This document shows, in pieces, positions 20,420 to 26,428 of a stretch of 64,000 nt of DNA. Under the pieces are notes generated by a model, which was not told where the DNA came from, did not search any database, and worked only from the letters and a program-made list of their open reading frames with translations. Origin of the DNA: an uncultured Flavobacteriales bacterium (GTDB lineage: Bacteria; Bacteroidota; Bacteroidia; Flavobacteriales_E; Vicingaceae). Positions within the stretch are counted from its first letter, which is position 1; the number at the start of each line of letters is the position of its first letter. Position numbers and translations under genes: made by a program. Location: contig CAJQOH010000012.1 in the NCBI GenBank assembly GCA_905479915.1, forward strand, positions 1 through 64,000, given 5' to 3'.

Positions 20420-21154
20420 TTAGCTAGGATTTAAAGCATTTAAAATTTCTTTTTTTCTACTTCTTGCCACAGGTAAACTATCACCATTAAGCATATTTAA
20501 ACTACCTCCTCGCCCATTTTTATACTCTTTAACATAAGAAGTATTTACTATGTGAGATTGATGAACTCTTACAAAGTCTTCTTTTGGAAGTAAATCTTCA
20601 AAATCTTTTAACGTTTTAGCAACAAATAAAGAAGTTTCGTCTTTAAAATATACATTAGAATAATTCCCGTCCGATTGGCATCGAATTATTTCAGTATCAT
20701 AAGCATATCGGATTCCTTTTGAATGTTTTATTACTATTTTTTTAGACTCTAAAGGGTTATTCAAATTTTCTAGAAAAACAGATACATTCTCTTTTTTTGT
20801 TTCAATTTTAGCCACTGCCATTTGCAAGTCAGCAATATTTATAGGTTTTAACAAATAATCTAACGCACTGTATTTAATTGCCTTTAAAGCATATTTATCG
20901 AAACTTGTTACAAAGATGATATGAAAATTAATATGCTCCATTTCTCGCAACATATCAAACCCAGTTTTACTAGTCATTTGAACATCTAAAAACACTAAAT
21001 CAGGATTGGTATCTTTAATTAAATCTTTGCCTTGATCTGCAGAACTCGCTAATCCTAAAACTTTAATATTGGTACAATACTTTTTAACTATACCATAGAG
21101 CGCCTCTCTAACATTCTTCTCATCATCAATAATAACAGCTGTAATTGGCTCCAT
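20420..21154 (-). CDS. LytTR-family response regulator
   Basis: This 244-residue protein has a receiver domain with the acidic pair in VIIDDEKN, the phosphoacceptor aspartate D57 in LVFLDVQM, the conserved Thr/Ser in FVTSFDKYAL and Lys in DYLLKPI. A LytTR DNA-binding domain follows from about 140 to the end (EIIRCQSDGNYSNVYF, DFVRVHQSHIVNTSYVKEY). LytTR regulators bind imperfect direct repeats to activate target genes. It lies 4 bases downstream of the LytS-like kinase gene and completes a globin-kinase-regulator unit on the minus strand. The kinase next door is the obvious partner. The target genes are unknown. Confidence 0.95.
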   Translation of the reverse strand: MEPITAVIIDDEKNVREALYGIVKKYCTNIKVLGLASSADQGKDLIKDTNPDLVFLDVQMTSKTGFDMLREMEHINFHIIFVTSFDKYALKAIKYSALDYLLKPINIADLQMAVAKIETKKENVSVFLENLNNPLESKKIVIKHSKGIRYAYDTEIIRCQSDGNYSNVYFKDETSLFVAKTLKDFEDLLPKEDFVRVHQSHIVNTSYVKEYKNGRGGSLNMLNGDSLPVARSRKKEILNALNPS

Positions 21155-21158
21155 AGAC

Positions 21159-22262
21159 CTAAAATGTTATTGGTATAAATAATTCAACTCTTGTTCCTGA
21201 AGGCTTATCTCCATCATAAAGATCTGTATAAAGAATATTGTACTTTTTATTGTGTTCTTCCCATAGGATAGACAACCTTTTGTTGGTCACATTTAAGCTA
21301 TGCAAGTTAACCCGTTTCTTTTCTGTTTGCTGTTGTTCAAATTGCTCATTATACTTTCGCCCTACTCCATTATCTTCAATAATACACTTTAGCGTTATTT
21401 CATCAAGCAGTTCGAACTTAATGATAACTTTACCTTTCTCTGTTTTCTTATTTATTCCATGCCATATAGAGTTTTCTAAAAACGGCTGTATCAACATTGG
21501 TGGAATTTTTGTATTCCCAACATTTAGATTCTCATCCATCTCCAATATAAAATCCCAAGGAACATCCATCCTCATTTTTTCTATAGCAACATATGTTTCT
21601 AATAAGGTTATAATTTCTTCTACAGAGACATAATCATAATAAGATTGATCAAAACTTAAACGCATTAACCTCCCAAAGTGAGACAGGTAATTAACTGCCT
21701 GCTCCATATCTTTATCTACAATAAACCCTTGAATTGAGGTTAAACAGTTAGAAACAAAATGAGGATTAATAACAGCCTGTAAAGCTCTCAATTCAATGCT
21801 ATTCCTTTCTCTCTCAAGCTCTGTATTTGTTTTTATTAATTCTGCTTTTTGGGTATTGATTAATTCTAATGACTTTTCTAGTTCCTTCTTATTTTTCTCT
21901 GCCATTTTAACATAAGAATCAAGAAGGTACTCTTTTTCCTTTTCTTTTGAATAATCCATAATGGTAATAAAAAGGTGGTTATTATTGGTTTGGGAAAATT
22001 GAATTTTTAAAATCTTAGATCTCTTGTTTTCTTTTATTTCAAGCTCTACAGAATACTTTTTCCCTTTGGATAAAGCACGTTTTAATCGCTCAATTTTTAA
22101 TGTAGGAATTCGTTTAGTAAGTTCAACAAAATTCTCTAGCCATTTTGTACATAAATCATTTTCATAGATAAGATTAAAACTATCAATCGTGTAAATTGCT
22201 ACTCCAATATCACTATTGGAAACTAGCTGATTCAATAATTCTTTCTCTATATCTTTAGTCAA
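21159..22262 (-). CDS. LytS/YpdA-type sensor histidine kinase with PAS-like N-terminus
   Basis: The 367-residue protein starts at a TTG (22262), six bases after the globin stop, with no closer in-frame ATG. Residues about 1-110 look PAS-like (SDIGVAIYTIDSFNLIYENDL). A long coiled coil follows (about 115-160), then the His_kinase domain with INPHFVSNCL (phosphoacceptor H168), the N-box in PPMLIQPFLENSIWHG, the G1-box IIEDNGVG, and GTRVELFIPI at the C-terminus. There is no membrane segment, so it is a cytoplasmic kinase. Its input could come from the PAS-like domain, from the globin encoded just upstream, or from both. It probably phosphorylates the LytTR regulator. Confidence 0.9.
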   Translation of the reverse strand: MTKDIEKELLNQLVSNSDIGVAIYTIDSFNLIYENDLCTKWLENFVELTKRIPTLKIERLKRALSKGKKYSVELEIKENKRSKILKIQFSQTNNNHLFITIMDYSKEKEKEYLLDSYVKMAEKNKKELEKSLELINTQKAELIKTNTELERERNSIELRALQAVINPHFVSNCLTSIQGFIVDKDMEQAVNYLSHFGRLMRLSFDQSYYDYVSVEEIITLLETYVAIEKMRMDVPWDFILEMDENLNVGNTKIPPMLIQPFLENSIWHGINKKTEKGKVIIKFELLDEITLKCIIEDNGVGRKYNEQFEQQQTEKKRVNLHSLNVTNKRLSILWEEHNKKYNILYTDLYDGDKPSGTRVELFIPITF

Positions 22263-22268
22263 AATAAT

Positions 22269-22631
22269 TTATTTAGGCTGTACTATCAATTCTCTTTTCG
22301 ATTCAAATGCATTAGAAATAAAATCAATATGTTCATCACTCAATTCAAAATCTTCCATTGTTTCTACCAGACATTCTTTAGTTAAGTCAAACTGATGAGA
22401 GCTAATTCCTAATCTCATATGTGCTTGTCTCAATTCTTGATCTGTAAAAGAAGCTGGACCTCCCAATAACATAGAAAAGAACTTTGATTGATGGTCTATC
22501 AACCTTTCCATATTTACATTTTCAAACAACATTGAAACTCCATCACAATCTAAAACATTATCATAAAATGCTGTTATCAATTTTCTAACGGAAGTAAAAC
22601 CTCCTATTTCATCATATACTGATTTATTCAT
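22269..22631 (-). CDS. Group 1 truncated haemoglobin
   Basis: The ATG at 22631 is preferred over the adjacent upstream TTG and gives 120 residues, the normal length for a group I truncated haemoglobin. The sequence carries the family pattern: the entry motif YDEIGGFTSV, the B10 tyrosine in AFYDNVL (Y23), the E-helix DHQSKFFSMLLGGP with distal-side His47, and RQAHMRLGI with the probable proximal haem ligand His71. It should bind haem and O2, NO or CO. It is the first gene of a unit with a cytoplasmic kinase (6-base gap) and a LytTR regulator, which suggests gas sensing or NO/O2 handling tied to signalling; that link is inference. Confidence 0.88.
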   Translation of the reverse strand: MNKSVYDEIGGFTSVRKLITAFYDNVLDCDGVSMLFENVNMERLIDHQSKFFSMLLGGPASFTDQELRQAHMRLGISSHQFDLTKECLVETMEDFELSDEHIDFISNAFESKRELIVQPK

Positions 22632-22879
22632 CAATTTCTATTTTATAATATTCGGTTAAAGTTAAAAATATTTATTAGAGCTAGTATAGCACATTTAGTA
22701 TTCTGGCCTTTTCTTGTGATATTTTGGTAAAATACATTTTATCACTTCACAATCACCCGAAAATACTATATAAAAGCCCACATGATAAACTGAGAACAAA
22801 TAAGGAAACCCCCTAAAATATATCGCGTATTTTCATTAACGATTAAGTAATTAAACTTATTTCTTTAACACTTAACATC
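22632..22879. other. Divergent intergenic region without recognised gene
   Basis: The 248 bases separate the globin operon from the large T9SS cargo gene. I see AT-rich sequence and a short dyad (AAAATA...TATTTT around a central TATCGCG, near 22815-22833), but no tRNA, no small gene and no promoter with both consensus boxes. Confidence 0.5.
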
Positions 22880-25800
22880 ATGACTATCATTAGATTAAGT
22901 ATTACAATAGCAATGATTTTTGGATTATCTAATCATTCTATATCACAAACAACATTATATGCAAGAGCGAACGGAAACTGGAATGATGCAACAGCTGTAA
23001 CAGGAACTTGGTCAACAATTTCCTCGGGTGGTGCTGCTTGTGGATGTATTCCAACCGCTCTAGATTCAGTAGTAATAAGTGGATACAATGTAACAGCAGT
23101 AGCAATAGGAATGACTAAAGATTTAACAATAGAAACATCAAGTACATTAACTGTTAACAACAGTATTGGAATAGGAATTAACAATAGTGGTACAATTCAT
23201 TTAAAAACTGGTGGAACAATAACCGGTAATGGTTCAGGATCTAATAGTTATTTGTATTTTTTTTCTGGAGCTCCCTCTTTAATTATAGAATCTGGTTTTT
23301 CATTTAACTTAGACGATATTATTATAGCAGCCTCAGATTCATTAACAATAAGTGGTGCCGGAGATTTAACCTTAACAGATGACTTTAGTTTTATTGGATC
23401 CAACGCTTATGTAACCAACAACTTAACAGGAAATTTCAACCTTACCGGTGCAGGTCTATCTAGCTTATGGTACAAATCTACTTCTAGTGGTTGTACATTT
23501 ATTAATAATGGGCCTATGTATTGTGATCGTTACCTTTATGTGCAAGGTCCTAATTCAACCTTTATAAACAATAGCATAGTAAATCTTACCAATTCTGCTT
23601 ATGGTATTGGTATGACTTCTGGAGATGCTACAGGAACAATCATTACAAACCAAGCTTCAGGAACAATTAATGTTGCTGGAAGTTTTGCAGTATCCAACAA
23701 CCAAATGACTTTTAATAATTATGGAACATTAGATTTAGAAGGAGATTTAAATGCCTGGTCTGGCTCTTCTCCAAGTGAGTTTCATAATTTTAGTGGATCA
23801 TCATTCTACTTTGGTGGAACAGGTAATTTTTATGGAGATTTCTATGCGAATTATAATAGCAATTTAGTTGAATTTGATAACGCAACCACATTACAAAATG
23901 AACTCATAACCCCACAAGATAATTATTGGTCTATCGCTTTTTCCGGGTTTCAAAAACAAATAAAAACTTCCTTAAGTGTAAAGGGTGATTGTACTATTGA
24001 AACAAATGTTTTTTTACTAAACACCAGAGATATTACCATGGACAATGGTGGAACAATGACAATTGAAAGTGGAGGATCTTTAACAAGAACAGGTGTATCT
24101 GGAACAATAAATTTTTCAAACGGATACACATACAATTTAATTGTAAATGATGTAACAACAGGTTATCAATGGGATTATATTAGAGTGAGTGATAATGTTA
24201 CACTGAACATTAGCGGAGCAGGAACAATCTTATTGGATAATGACATAAGTTTTGATGGGAATAGTAGTACCGTTAACAATGATCTAACTGGTTCATTTAC
24301 CATAAATAGAAATATATTTTTCACCGCAGCAACTTCTGACAACCATTTTGTTAATAATGAAACTATAGCTCTTTCTGATGATATCAATCTTCAAGGTAAA
24401 AATAATGCTTTAACAAATAATAAAGCATTAACCATTACAGATGATCTTCTTTTTCAAGATACGTCATGTTCTCTAATTAATAATATAAATGGAACAATAA
24501 CCGTAGGAGATGATTTTAGGTTTACATCTTCTTGGTTTTCAAAACTAACCAACAGTGGGAATATAGATGTTACAGGAGAAATAGCCTATCAAGGACAGCA
24601 AGATACAATTGACAATTCCGGAACTATTAGTACTGATAGTCAATTAAGGGTTGTAGCGAGTACAAATGACGATAACGTAATTATTAATAATACTGGAGGA
24701 ATTATTAATGTTGATATGGATTTTATATTAAGTGATGCTGATTTCTTATTTGACAATTCAGGTACATTTAATTTAATGGGGCGATTTGATGATATGGCTG
24801 GAACAGAAGCTTTTCATAACAAATCTGGAGGAATAGTTAACTATTATGGTGTCCATAATGTAAACTTGAATACTGAACTTTCATTGTATACGAATTACTC
24901 TTCAAATGAATTTAACTATGTAGGACTAGCAGATCAAGAAATAATTGTACCTCAAGATGCTTATTGGGATTTAACTTTAGGAGGTTTAGGAAATAAAGAA
25001 CCTCAAGGCGATTTAGATATTAATGGGAATGTACTAATAAATGGCACAGCCGATTTTGACGTAAACACTAATAACAATAACCTAACTGTAGGAGGTAACT
25101 GGACCTCTACTTCAACTTTTGATGAAGGAACTGAACTGGTAACTTTTGATGGAACTGGTGATCAAACAATCAATACTTCAGGAGGAGAAACCTTTTATAA
25201 CTGGATCATTAACAAAAGCTCTGGAAAAGTAATAATGGATTCTAATGTCGATTTAACCAATGTATTGGGTTTAACATCAGGAGCTTGTGATATGAACACA
25301 AATACCTTAACCATTAATCTACAAAATACAGCTGCAATTGTTCGTACCTCTGGATATTTAATTAGTGACCAAACTGACAACTCAAGTAAACTAGTTCGAA
25401 AAATTGGTACTACTATAGGATCTTTCTTATTTCCATTTGGAAAAAGTGATGGAGAATATATACCATTCACTTTAGAAACAACTGCAGGAGATATAGGTGA
25501 TGTAACAATATCAACTTACTCTACAGGGTCTGATAATCTACCCTTACCAACTACTCCAGATCTAGTCTCAAATCTTAACAGCGTAATAGGAGCATTACCT
25601 GATAATAGAGAAAATACAATAGATCGATTTTGGCAAATAGATAAATCTGGTGTATCAGGAACTGCTAACCTTACTTTTAGTTATGCCCAGACTGAAGCAA
25701 GTGGAAACGTTTCTGCAAGTGAAAATCTATTAGAAGCTCAGCGTTATAATACCAGTACTAATGACTGGGAACCTGCAATATCAGGACAAGTAGCCAATGC

Positions 25801-26428
25801 TGCTAACAATACAGTACAAGTATCTGGAGTAAGTTCATTTTCACCTTGGTCATTAGCTCTTTCTAGTGCACCACTCCCTATTACTCTAGTAGAGTTTAAT
25901 GCTGTACTTAACAATGAAAATGTAGACTTAACCTGGGTAACATCTTCTCAAATAAATAACGATTTTTTCACCTTAGAAAAATCAGAAGATGCAAAGGACT
26001 TTACTCCTTTTGCAACAGTTGATGGGGCTGGAAATAATAATACAATTATCAATTATCATGAACAGGATTATGAGGTTCAAAAGGGAATAACATATTACAG
26101 ATTAAAACAAACCGATTTTAATGGTGAGTATACATATTCGAATGTAGTTCCTGTAAACAACCTAGGTAAAACCTTATCCTTTAATGTATTTCCAAATCCA
26201 GCAAATGGTGAAGAGTTCAAAATAAAAATGAATGATAGTGAAGATGAAGATATTTTGATCATCATTAGAGATATTCAAGGAAAAGAGTGTTATTCTAAAA
26301 TGTTAAAAACAGATCCTAGTTCTAACGAATATACGATTATTCCTGAACAGCCTTTAAGTAAGGGAGTATACAATATTATTGGAACATCTAACAATAACTT
26401 ATTTAACAGTAAACTAATAATTAAATAA
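22880..26428 (+). CDS. Large beta-rich T9SS cargo protein
   Basis: This 1182-residue protein starts with a signal peptide (MTIIRLSITIAMIFGLSNHSISQ). Residues about 24-850 are repetitive, with many short segments such as SGTIHLKTGGTIT, NDLTGSF and NNINGTITVGDDFRF. Their Gly/Asn/Thr-rich pattern, repeating on the scale of one beta-helix turn, suggests a long right-handed beta-solenoid adhesin. The region near 1010-1095 (PLPITLVEFNAVL ... YYRLKQTDFNGEYTYSNVV) is the linker commonly seen just before Bacteroidota sorting domains. The type A T9SS sorting domain begins near 1099 (LSFNVFPNPANG) and ends in LIIK. A surface role is expected; the ligand is unknown. A TPR gene follows 21 bases downstream. 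Confidence 0.85.
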   Translation: MTIIRLSITIAMIFGLSNHSISQTTLYARANGNWNDATAVTGTWSTISSGGAACGCIPTALDSVVISGYNVTAVAIGMTKDLTIETSSTLTVNNSIGIGINNSGTIHLKTGGTITGNGSGSNSYLYFFSGAPSLIIESGFSFNLDDIIIAASDSLTISGAGDLTLTDDFSFIGSNAYVTNNLTGNFNLTGAGLSSLWYKSTSSGCTFINNGPMYCDRYLYVQGPNSTFINNSIVNLTNSAYGIGMTSGDATGTIITNQASGTINVAGSFAVSNNQMTFNNYGTLDLEGDLNAWSGSSPSEFHNFSGSSFYFGGTGNFYGDFYANYNSNLVEFDNATTLQNELITPQDNYWSIAFSGFQKQIKTSLSVKGDCTIETNVFLLNTRDITMDNGGTMTIESGGSLTRTGVSGTINFSNGYTYNLIVNDVTTGYQWDYIRVSDNVTLNISGAGTILLDNDISFDGNSSTVNNDLTGSFTINRNIFFTAATSDNHFVNNETIALSDDINLQGKNNALTNNKALTITDDLLFQDTSCSLINNINGTITVGDDFRFTSSWFSKLTNSGNIDVTGEIAYQGQQDTIDNSGTISTDSQLRVVASTNDDNVIINNTGGIINVDMDFILSDADFLFDNSGTFNLMGRFDDMAGTEAFHNKSGGIVNYYGVHNVNLNTELSLYTNYSSNEFNYVGLADQEIIVPQDAYWDLTLGGLGNKEPQGDLDINGNVLINGTADFDVNTNNNNLTVGGNWTSTSTFDEGTELVTFDGTGDQTINTSGGETFYNWIINKSSGKVIMDSNVDLTNVLGLTSGACDMNTNTLTINLQNTAAIVRTSGYLISDQTDNSSKLVRKIGTTIGSFLFPFGKSDGEYIPFTLETTAGDIGDVTISTYSTGSDNLPLPTTPDLVSNLNSVIGALPDNRENTIDRFWQIDKSGVSGTANLTFSYAQTEASGNVSASENLLEAQRYNTSTNDWEPAISGQVANAANNTVQVSGVSSFSPWSLALSSAPLPITLVEFNAVLNNENVDLTWVTSSQINNDFFTLEKSEDAKDFTPFATVDGAGNNNTIINYHEQDYEVQKGITYYRLKQTDFNGEYTYSNVVPVNNLGKTLSFNVFPNPANGEEFKIKMNDSEDEDILIIIRDIQGKECYSKMLKTDPSSNEYTIIPEQPLSKGVYNIIGTSNNNLFNSKLIIK

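Follow-up and report, generated by a model that had tools for sequence, protein, structure and literature searches.

Within the window (the whole stretch of DNA analyzed, 64,000 nucleotides from an uncultured Flavobacteriales bacterium), three consecutive genes on the minus strand encode a group 1 truncated hemoglobin (trHb1) of 120 aa (22269..22631; PF01152), a soluble LytS-type histidine kinase of 367 aa beginning with TTG (21159..22262; PF06580, 3.6e-17), and a LytTR response regulator of 244 aa (20420..21154; PF00072, 9.6e-18; PF04397, 3.3e-17). Only 6 bases separate globin from kinase, and 4 bases kinase from regulator; this order and spacing, already described in an initial annotation, was confirmed from the open reading frames and the Pfam matches. 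The phospho-acceptor H168 of the kinase and the phospho-site D57 of the regulator were found where they had been placed, the N box and the G boxes of the kinase are intact, and its assignment to the cytoplasm agrees with the lack of a transmembrane segment (highest hydropathy over 19 residues, 1.06). The globin gene is the only trHb-family gene that a search of the source genome revealed. Next to it lies a divergent intergenic region (22632..22879; no strand), which likely carries the operon promoter and possibly a LytTR site, followed by the gene for a large secreted surface protein transcribed from the plus strand (22880..26428).

The globin and its heme pocket

The globin had been described as a 120-residue group I globin, which its match to the Bac_globin profile supports (65.7 bits, E 5.6e-18). 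Its best alignment in a phmmer comparison was to HbN of Mycobacterium tuberculosis (7.4e-15), and this alignment fixes the pocket residues as B10 Tyr23, E7 Leu44, E10 His47, E11 Gln48, and F8 His71. Tyr23 and the proximal His71 thereby retain their proposed positions. His47, previously called the distal histidine, is indeed a distal-side residue but occupies position E10, position E7 being Leu44. The AlphaFold2 (AF2) model is a 2/2 globin (pLDDT 90.7) that superimposes on HbN with a TM score of 0.87–0.88. By profile, 2/2 fold, F8 His, and B10 Tyr, the protein belongs to the group 1 truncated hemoglobins. Its Protoglobin score is 13.8 bits (cut-off 25), so that it does not qualify as a 3/3 sensor globin, and an H-NOX identity was rejected as there is no match to HNOB and the model is a 2/2 globin.

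With HbN and cyanobacterial GlbN, the protein shares the fold, B10 Tyr, E11 Gln, and F8 His, and with GlbN also E10 His, which in the Synechocystis protein is the distal iron ligand. HbN is an enzyme reactive toward O2 and NO, an NO dioxygenase, in which B10 Tyr and E11 Gln stabilize bound O2. Here, in contrast, the trHb1 gene is tied to that of a signaling protein.

The N-terminal domain of the kinase

The initial annotation also ascribed a PAS-like N-terminus to the kinase. The AF2 model of residues 1–145 (pLDDT 83, pTM 0.66) indeed predicts a PAS fold that continues into a helix of 40 residues, unbroken from residue 105 to 144. The PAS domain (residues ∼1–103; 21954..22262, minus strand), supported by AF2, Foldseek, and hhalign, is proposed to dock the globin and to transduce its signal, and the modeled signaling-helix (coiled-coil) segment (residues ∼105–150; 21813..21950, minus strand) leads from it to the phospho-acceptor region. 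The top Foldseek matches of the PAS model were PAS domains of sensor kinases and of NifL (E 3.5e-5 to 7e-4), and its structural neighbors include the heme-binding PAS domain of SrrB. Pfam did not recognize the PAS domain in the window kinase; that of a Novosphingobium relative matched PAS_8 weakly (24.4 bits; cut-off 21.8). Homology of the domain between lineages was evident in hhalign comparisons of the kinase N-terminus between Flavobacteriales and Colwellia (2.4e-7) and of the PAS-helix profile with the Novosphingobium cyclase (4.3e-14). In the PAS part of 12 aligned proteins, Asn35 alone is invariant, and Trp41 and Arg81 are almost so. As no His or Cys is invariant among these 12 proteins, the PAS domain has no obvious heme ligand.

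The three-gene unit in Flavobacteriales

Uniqueness of the gene order, set beforehand as a refutation of the proposed split sensor, does not hold: the trio recurs in a sister species (G005; loci L003 and L027; globin identity ∼66–67%, kinase 66%) and in Flavobacteriales MAG.175 (locus L026; globin identity ∼66–68%). Among the genomes surveyed, the LytS/LytTR form is confined to these three; no further example was found in 395 Bacteroidota genomes (globin search) or in 247 (PAS-domain search), and the other Bacteroidota trHb1 genes from the 395-genome search had no PAS-helix partner. In the remaining 12 genomes of the genus, no close globin was found, and their kinases, among the matches listed, matched the C-terminal part only. 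A scan of the species genomes with a two-sequence globin alignment relied on weak peptide patterns and returned five loci, and thus under-reports. The kinase begins with TTG or GTG at all three Flavobacteriales loci (window 22262; L003 1481; L026 5370), and its amount may therefore be below that of the globin.

The sole conserved neighbor in the Flavobacteriales loci is the divergently transcribed large secreted protein, a homologue of which stands at the same position in both other loci; it is a candidate target of the LytTR regulator, suggested by its position. Neither an alignment of the three genomes nor a repeat scan brought out a convincing LytTR site conserved between the divergent genes, and no Bacteroidota TAnnTTTG box was found upstream of the globin.

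The globin and PAS-helix pair in other bacteria

The conserved unit is the globin together with the PAS-helix domain, irrespective of the output attached to it, and was found in Flavobacteriales, in relatives of Colwellia, and in a second pseudomonadotan class, in which Novosphingobium is the closest named member. The 25 pairs comprise 3 with a LytS kinase (window, L003, L026), 6 with a HisKA kinase, either hybrid (L028–L030, L084, L085) or plain (L087), 1 with a GGDEF domain (L088), and, most commonly, 15 with a class III nucleotide cyclase (L050, L054, L055, L086, L103–L113), a count that includes two broken genes (L107, L109). In all of them, globin and partner are encoded by separate genes. 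In Colwellia MAGs (L028–L030), the globin gene overlaps that of a hybrid HisKA kinase with a homologous N-terminus, and a second Colwellia globin gene overlaps a PAS-GGDEF gene (PAS-helix profile, 7e-7). Among plasmids, the globin nearest to that of the window (42.7% identical) is encoded on pLA3 of Novosphingobium pentaromativorans; 4 bases separate its gene from the next, which encodes the PAS-helix domain fused to a class III cyclase.

The association was equally apparent from the PAS side. The PAS-helix profile alone retrieved four non-seed genes from 60 Colwellia-family genomes, all with a trHb1 gene directly upstream, and 11 strong non-seed matches from 289 genomes of the class to which G799 belongs (probably Alphaproteobacteria), again all with trHb1 directly upstream. 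Over both searches, trHb1 thus immediately preceded, on the same strand, 15 of 15 strong non-seed matches, and none of the weak matches resembling ordinary PAS proteins. A search starting from the globin gave strong members (118 bits or more) in 10 of 245 genomes, nine of which also have the PAS partner. The tenth (G1192) has a partnerless globin of the partnered type adjoining a Rieske-type dioxygenase, and such globins may therefore also work alone.

Wherever simple patterns were readable, the partner cyclases carry the adenylate-type Lys of KT[IV]GD and Asp of YD[IVL]FG; cAMP is therefore their predicted product. In the cyclase on pLA3 (L050 6362-7411), the customary transition-state Asn and Arg are missing, and this enzyme may for this reason be weak or inactive. 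Beyond the pair, no neighboring gene family is generally conserved, except that genes for an OsmC-family protein and an FAD-oxidoreductase lie near the globin in a few loci (L050 2717-5914; L091 3383-5253; L176 4563-5646), perhaps a hint at peroxide or redox stress.

The partnered globins form a separate clade

In a tree of 98 trHb domains, all 24 partnered globins lay beyond a single branch (support 96/91; 98% of 200 bootstrap trees), the number of alignment columns underlying this tree being small. E10 His and E11 Gln were present in 24 of 24, and B10 Tyr, E10 His, E11 Gln, and F8 His were invariant among them, the lone gap being due to a fragment. In 75 other globins, position E10 was Lys in 56 and His in 11, one of the latter (L113) being itself partnered. 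Three unpartnered globins (L032, L051, L052) also have the Tyr/His/Gln/His set, and the pocket alone is therefore insufficient to define the group. Across 22 pairs, distances among the globins correlated with those among the PAS domains (r 0.75, a value reached in 0 of 5,000 permutations), which shared ancestry would also yield.

Several other arrangements of trHb genes were encountered. In a member of Bacteroidota (L098 5178-7469), a trHb1 gene starts 3 bases past a gene for a GAF-sigma54 activator; this is a different arrangement, and the locus was rejected as a member of the pairs. In several members of the class to which G799 belongs, apparent CheA proteins contain an internal trHb1 domain, behind the Hpt-like N-terminus and ahead of the remainder (L177 2182-5157; L158, L159, L160, L162), and small pseudomonadotan genomes have trHb1 genes or domains in tandem, up to three in a row (L057–L081; for example L060 1459-2735). 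In two loci, trHb1 is directly followed by a ferredoxin-reductase-like gene (L155 502-1836; L165 481-1857), likely an enzymatic pairing distinct from the signaling one. Finally, trHb proteins with apparent signal peptides have atypical pocket residues (L034–L036, L038, L040–L042, L046), and at L035, L036, and L041 their genes adjoin one for a conserved large secreted protein.

Comparison with known sensor systems

H-NOX and NosP are established examples of heme sensors encoded apart from the kinases or cyclases that they regulate (PMC8846402). The split H-NOX/kinase and H-NOX/diguanylate cyclase systems (HnoX-HnoK, H-NOX-Dgc1) and NosP-NahK likewise combine a small separate heme protein with a soluble output. 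Their sensor, however, is an H-NOX or FIST protein, whereas here it is a 2/2 truncated globin whose partners share a specific PAS-helix domain. As in split H-NOX systems, a stand-alone candidate sensor gene adjoins a soluble kinase gene, the comparison being one of working arrangement and of genes only. The source genome itself contains an H-NOX gene that overlaps the gene for a PAS/HisKA hybrid kinase (L180 4613-5152; G000:C14:48615-49091); upstream, an NtrC-like regulator is encoded. This pair is a canonical split H-NOX system and a direct parallel in design.

Globin-coupled sensors (DgcO/YddV, AfGcHK) also join a globin input to a kinase or cyclase output, but the known ones have a 3/3 globin fused to the output in one chain. 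Membership in that group was rejected for the globin of the window, since a stop codon separates the two genes, giving two chains, and the fold is 2/2. The soluble guanylate cyclase type HNOB-HNOBA-cyclase has in common with the present pairs a heme sensor, a PAS domain, a signaling helix, and a class III cyclase. It differs in that its sensor is an H-NOX domain, whereas here the globin is on a separate chain and the cyclases are of the adenylate type by their Lys and Asp. The HNOBA profile matched, with its C-terminal helix, the helix segment only, and only in cyclase versions (none in the window kinase), one of which (L086) exceeded the Pfam cut-off (25.0 vs 23.4 bits). The kinase and the adjoining regulator are those of a LytS/LytTR two-component system, except that the multi-pass membrane sensor domain of such systems is absent; the kinase has a PAS-helix N-terminus, together with the globin. 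Signaling helices are well established as connectors of sensor to effector domains (PMC1592074), and trHb domains fused to others, for example kinases, have been mentioned (PMC7082302). No description of a separate trHb1 with a PAS transducer was found in full-text searches that covered open-access papers only.

Discussion

The pairing of globin and PAS-helix domain recurs in distant bacteria while the signaling half is exchanged, which suggests a role of the globin as a detachable gas sensor. The initial annotation had proposed a split sensor for this one locus; the proposal is supported, and it gains generality from the recurrence of the pair across two phyla with varied outputs. For the window, we put at roughly 70% the probability that trHb1 serves as the detachable sensor subunit of a soluble two-component system, acting through the PAS domain and the helix on the kinase and thereby on transcription via the LytTR regulator. 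In this mechanism, a ligand would bind the heme of trHb1, probably displacing E10 His; the globin so altered would act on the N-terminal PAS domain of the kinase; the signal would travel along the helix and set kinase activity; and the LytTR regulator would then alter transcription. The four pocket residues invariant among the partnered globins make a GlbN-like His/His switch at the heme plausible. As ligand we would favor O2, at about even odds, because the genome already has an NO-type sensor and because B10 Tyr and E11 Gln stabilize O2 in HbN; NO appears less probable, and a redox or other signal would be the least expected. The analysis shows the genes and their order, the homology of the PAS-helix domain across outputs, its tight linkage to one trHb1 clade, and the invariant pocket residues; that the globin binds heme and touches the kinase, which ligand it takes, in which sense it regulates, and which genes are the targets is what we infer from them, and operon linkage is not proof of contact between globin and kinase. 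Against the mechanism count the partnerless globin of G1192, the two broken cyclase partners (L107, L109), and the fact that HbN, an NO dioxygenase, has the B10 Tyr and E11 Gln pocket as well.

An accidental or hitch-hiking gene order, which would make the adjacency meaningless, might be suspected from the restriction of the LytS/LytTR form to three related genomes. It was nevertheless rejected, and is extremely improbable, given that every one of the 15 strong non-seed PAS-helix matches has the globin directly upstream while output, neighbors, and phylum vary. That the globin is instead an effector enzyme, an NO dioxygenase or a scavenger of O2 or NO, and that the PAS protein senses separately and controls or shares its expression, we consider unlikely. 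Such a role would accord with the HbN-like B10 Tyr and E11 Gln, with the partnerless globin of G1192, and with the fact that PAS domains often bind ligands of their own; yet it is a specific PAS-helix domain, and not any one output, to which the globin is tied, the partnered globins form a clade of their own, and no reductase gene is generally linked to them, unlike in the loci L155 and L165. Many PAS domains bind heme, and the globin could, in principle, be an upstream modifier that delivers heme, electrons, or ligand to a heme- or redox-sensing PAS domain; the resemblance of the model to the PAS domain of SrrB is in line with this, but the lack of an invariant His or Cys speaks against it, and we regard it as a distinctly improbable explanation.

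The sensor-subunit reading may extend well beyond the window. We think it fairly probable, with somewhat less assurance than for the single locus, that two-piece gas receptors of this design form a widespread family, in which members of a dedicated trHb1 clade dock on their cognate PAS-helix domain and, by switching from His/His to ligand coordination, control any of four types of output, namely, LytS kinases with a LytTR regulator, HisKA kinases, nucleotide cyclases, and diguanylate cyclases. As part of that proposal, the family would be the globin counterpart of the H-NOX partner systems. The role of many bacterial truncated hemoglobins is unsettled, and the roles proposed are mostly enzymatic (NO dioxygenase) or in transport; a trHb1 clade tied to a signaling domain offers a direct and testable role. 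If the proposal is true, truncated globins would join the short list of separately encoded heme sensors, next to H-NOX and NosP, and the exchangeable outputs would provide a natural system for studying how a docked globin drives a unit of PAS domain and signaling helix.
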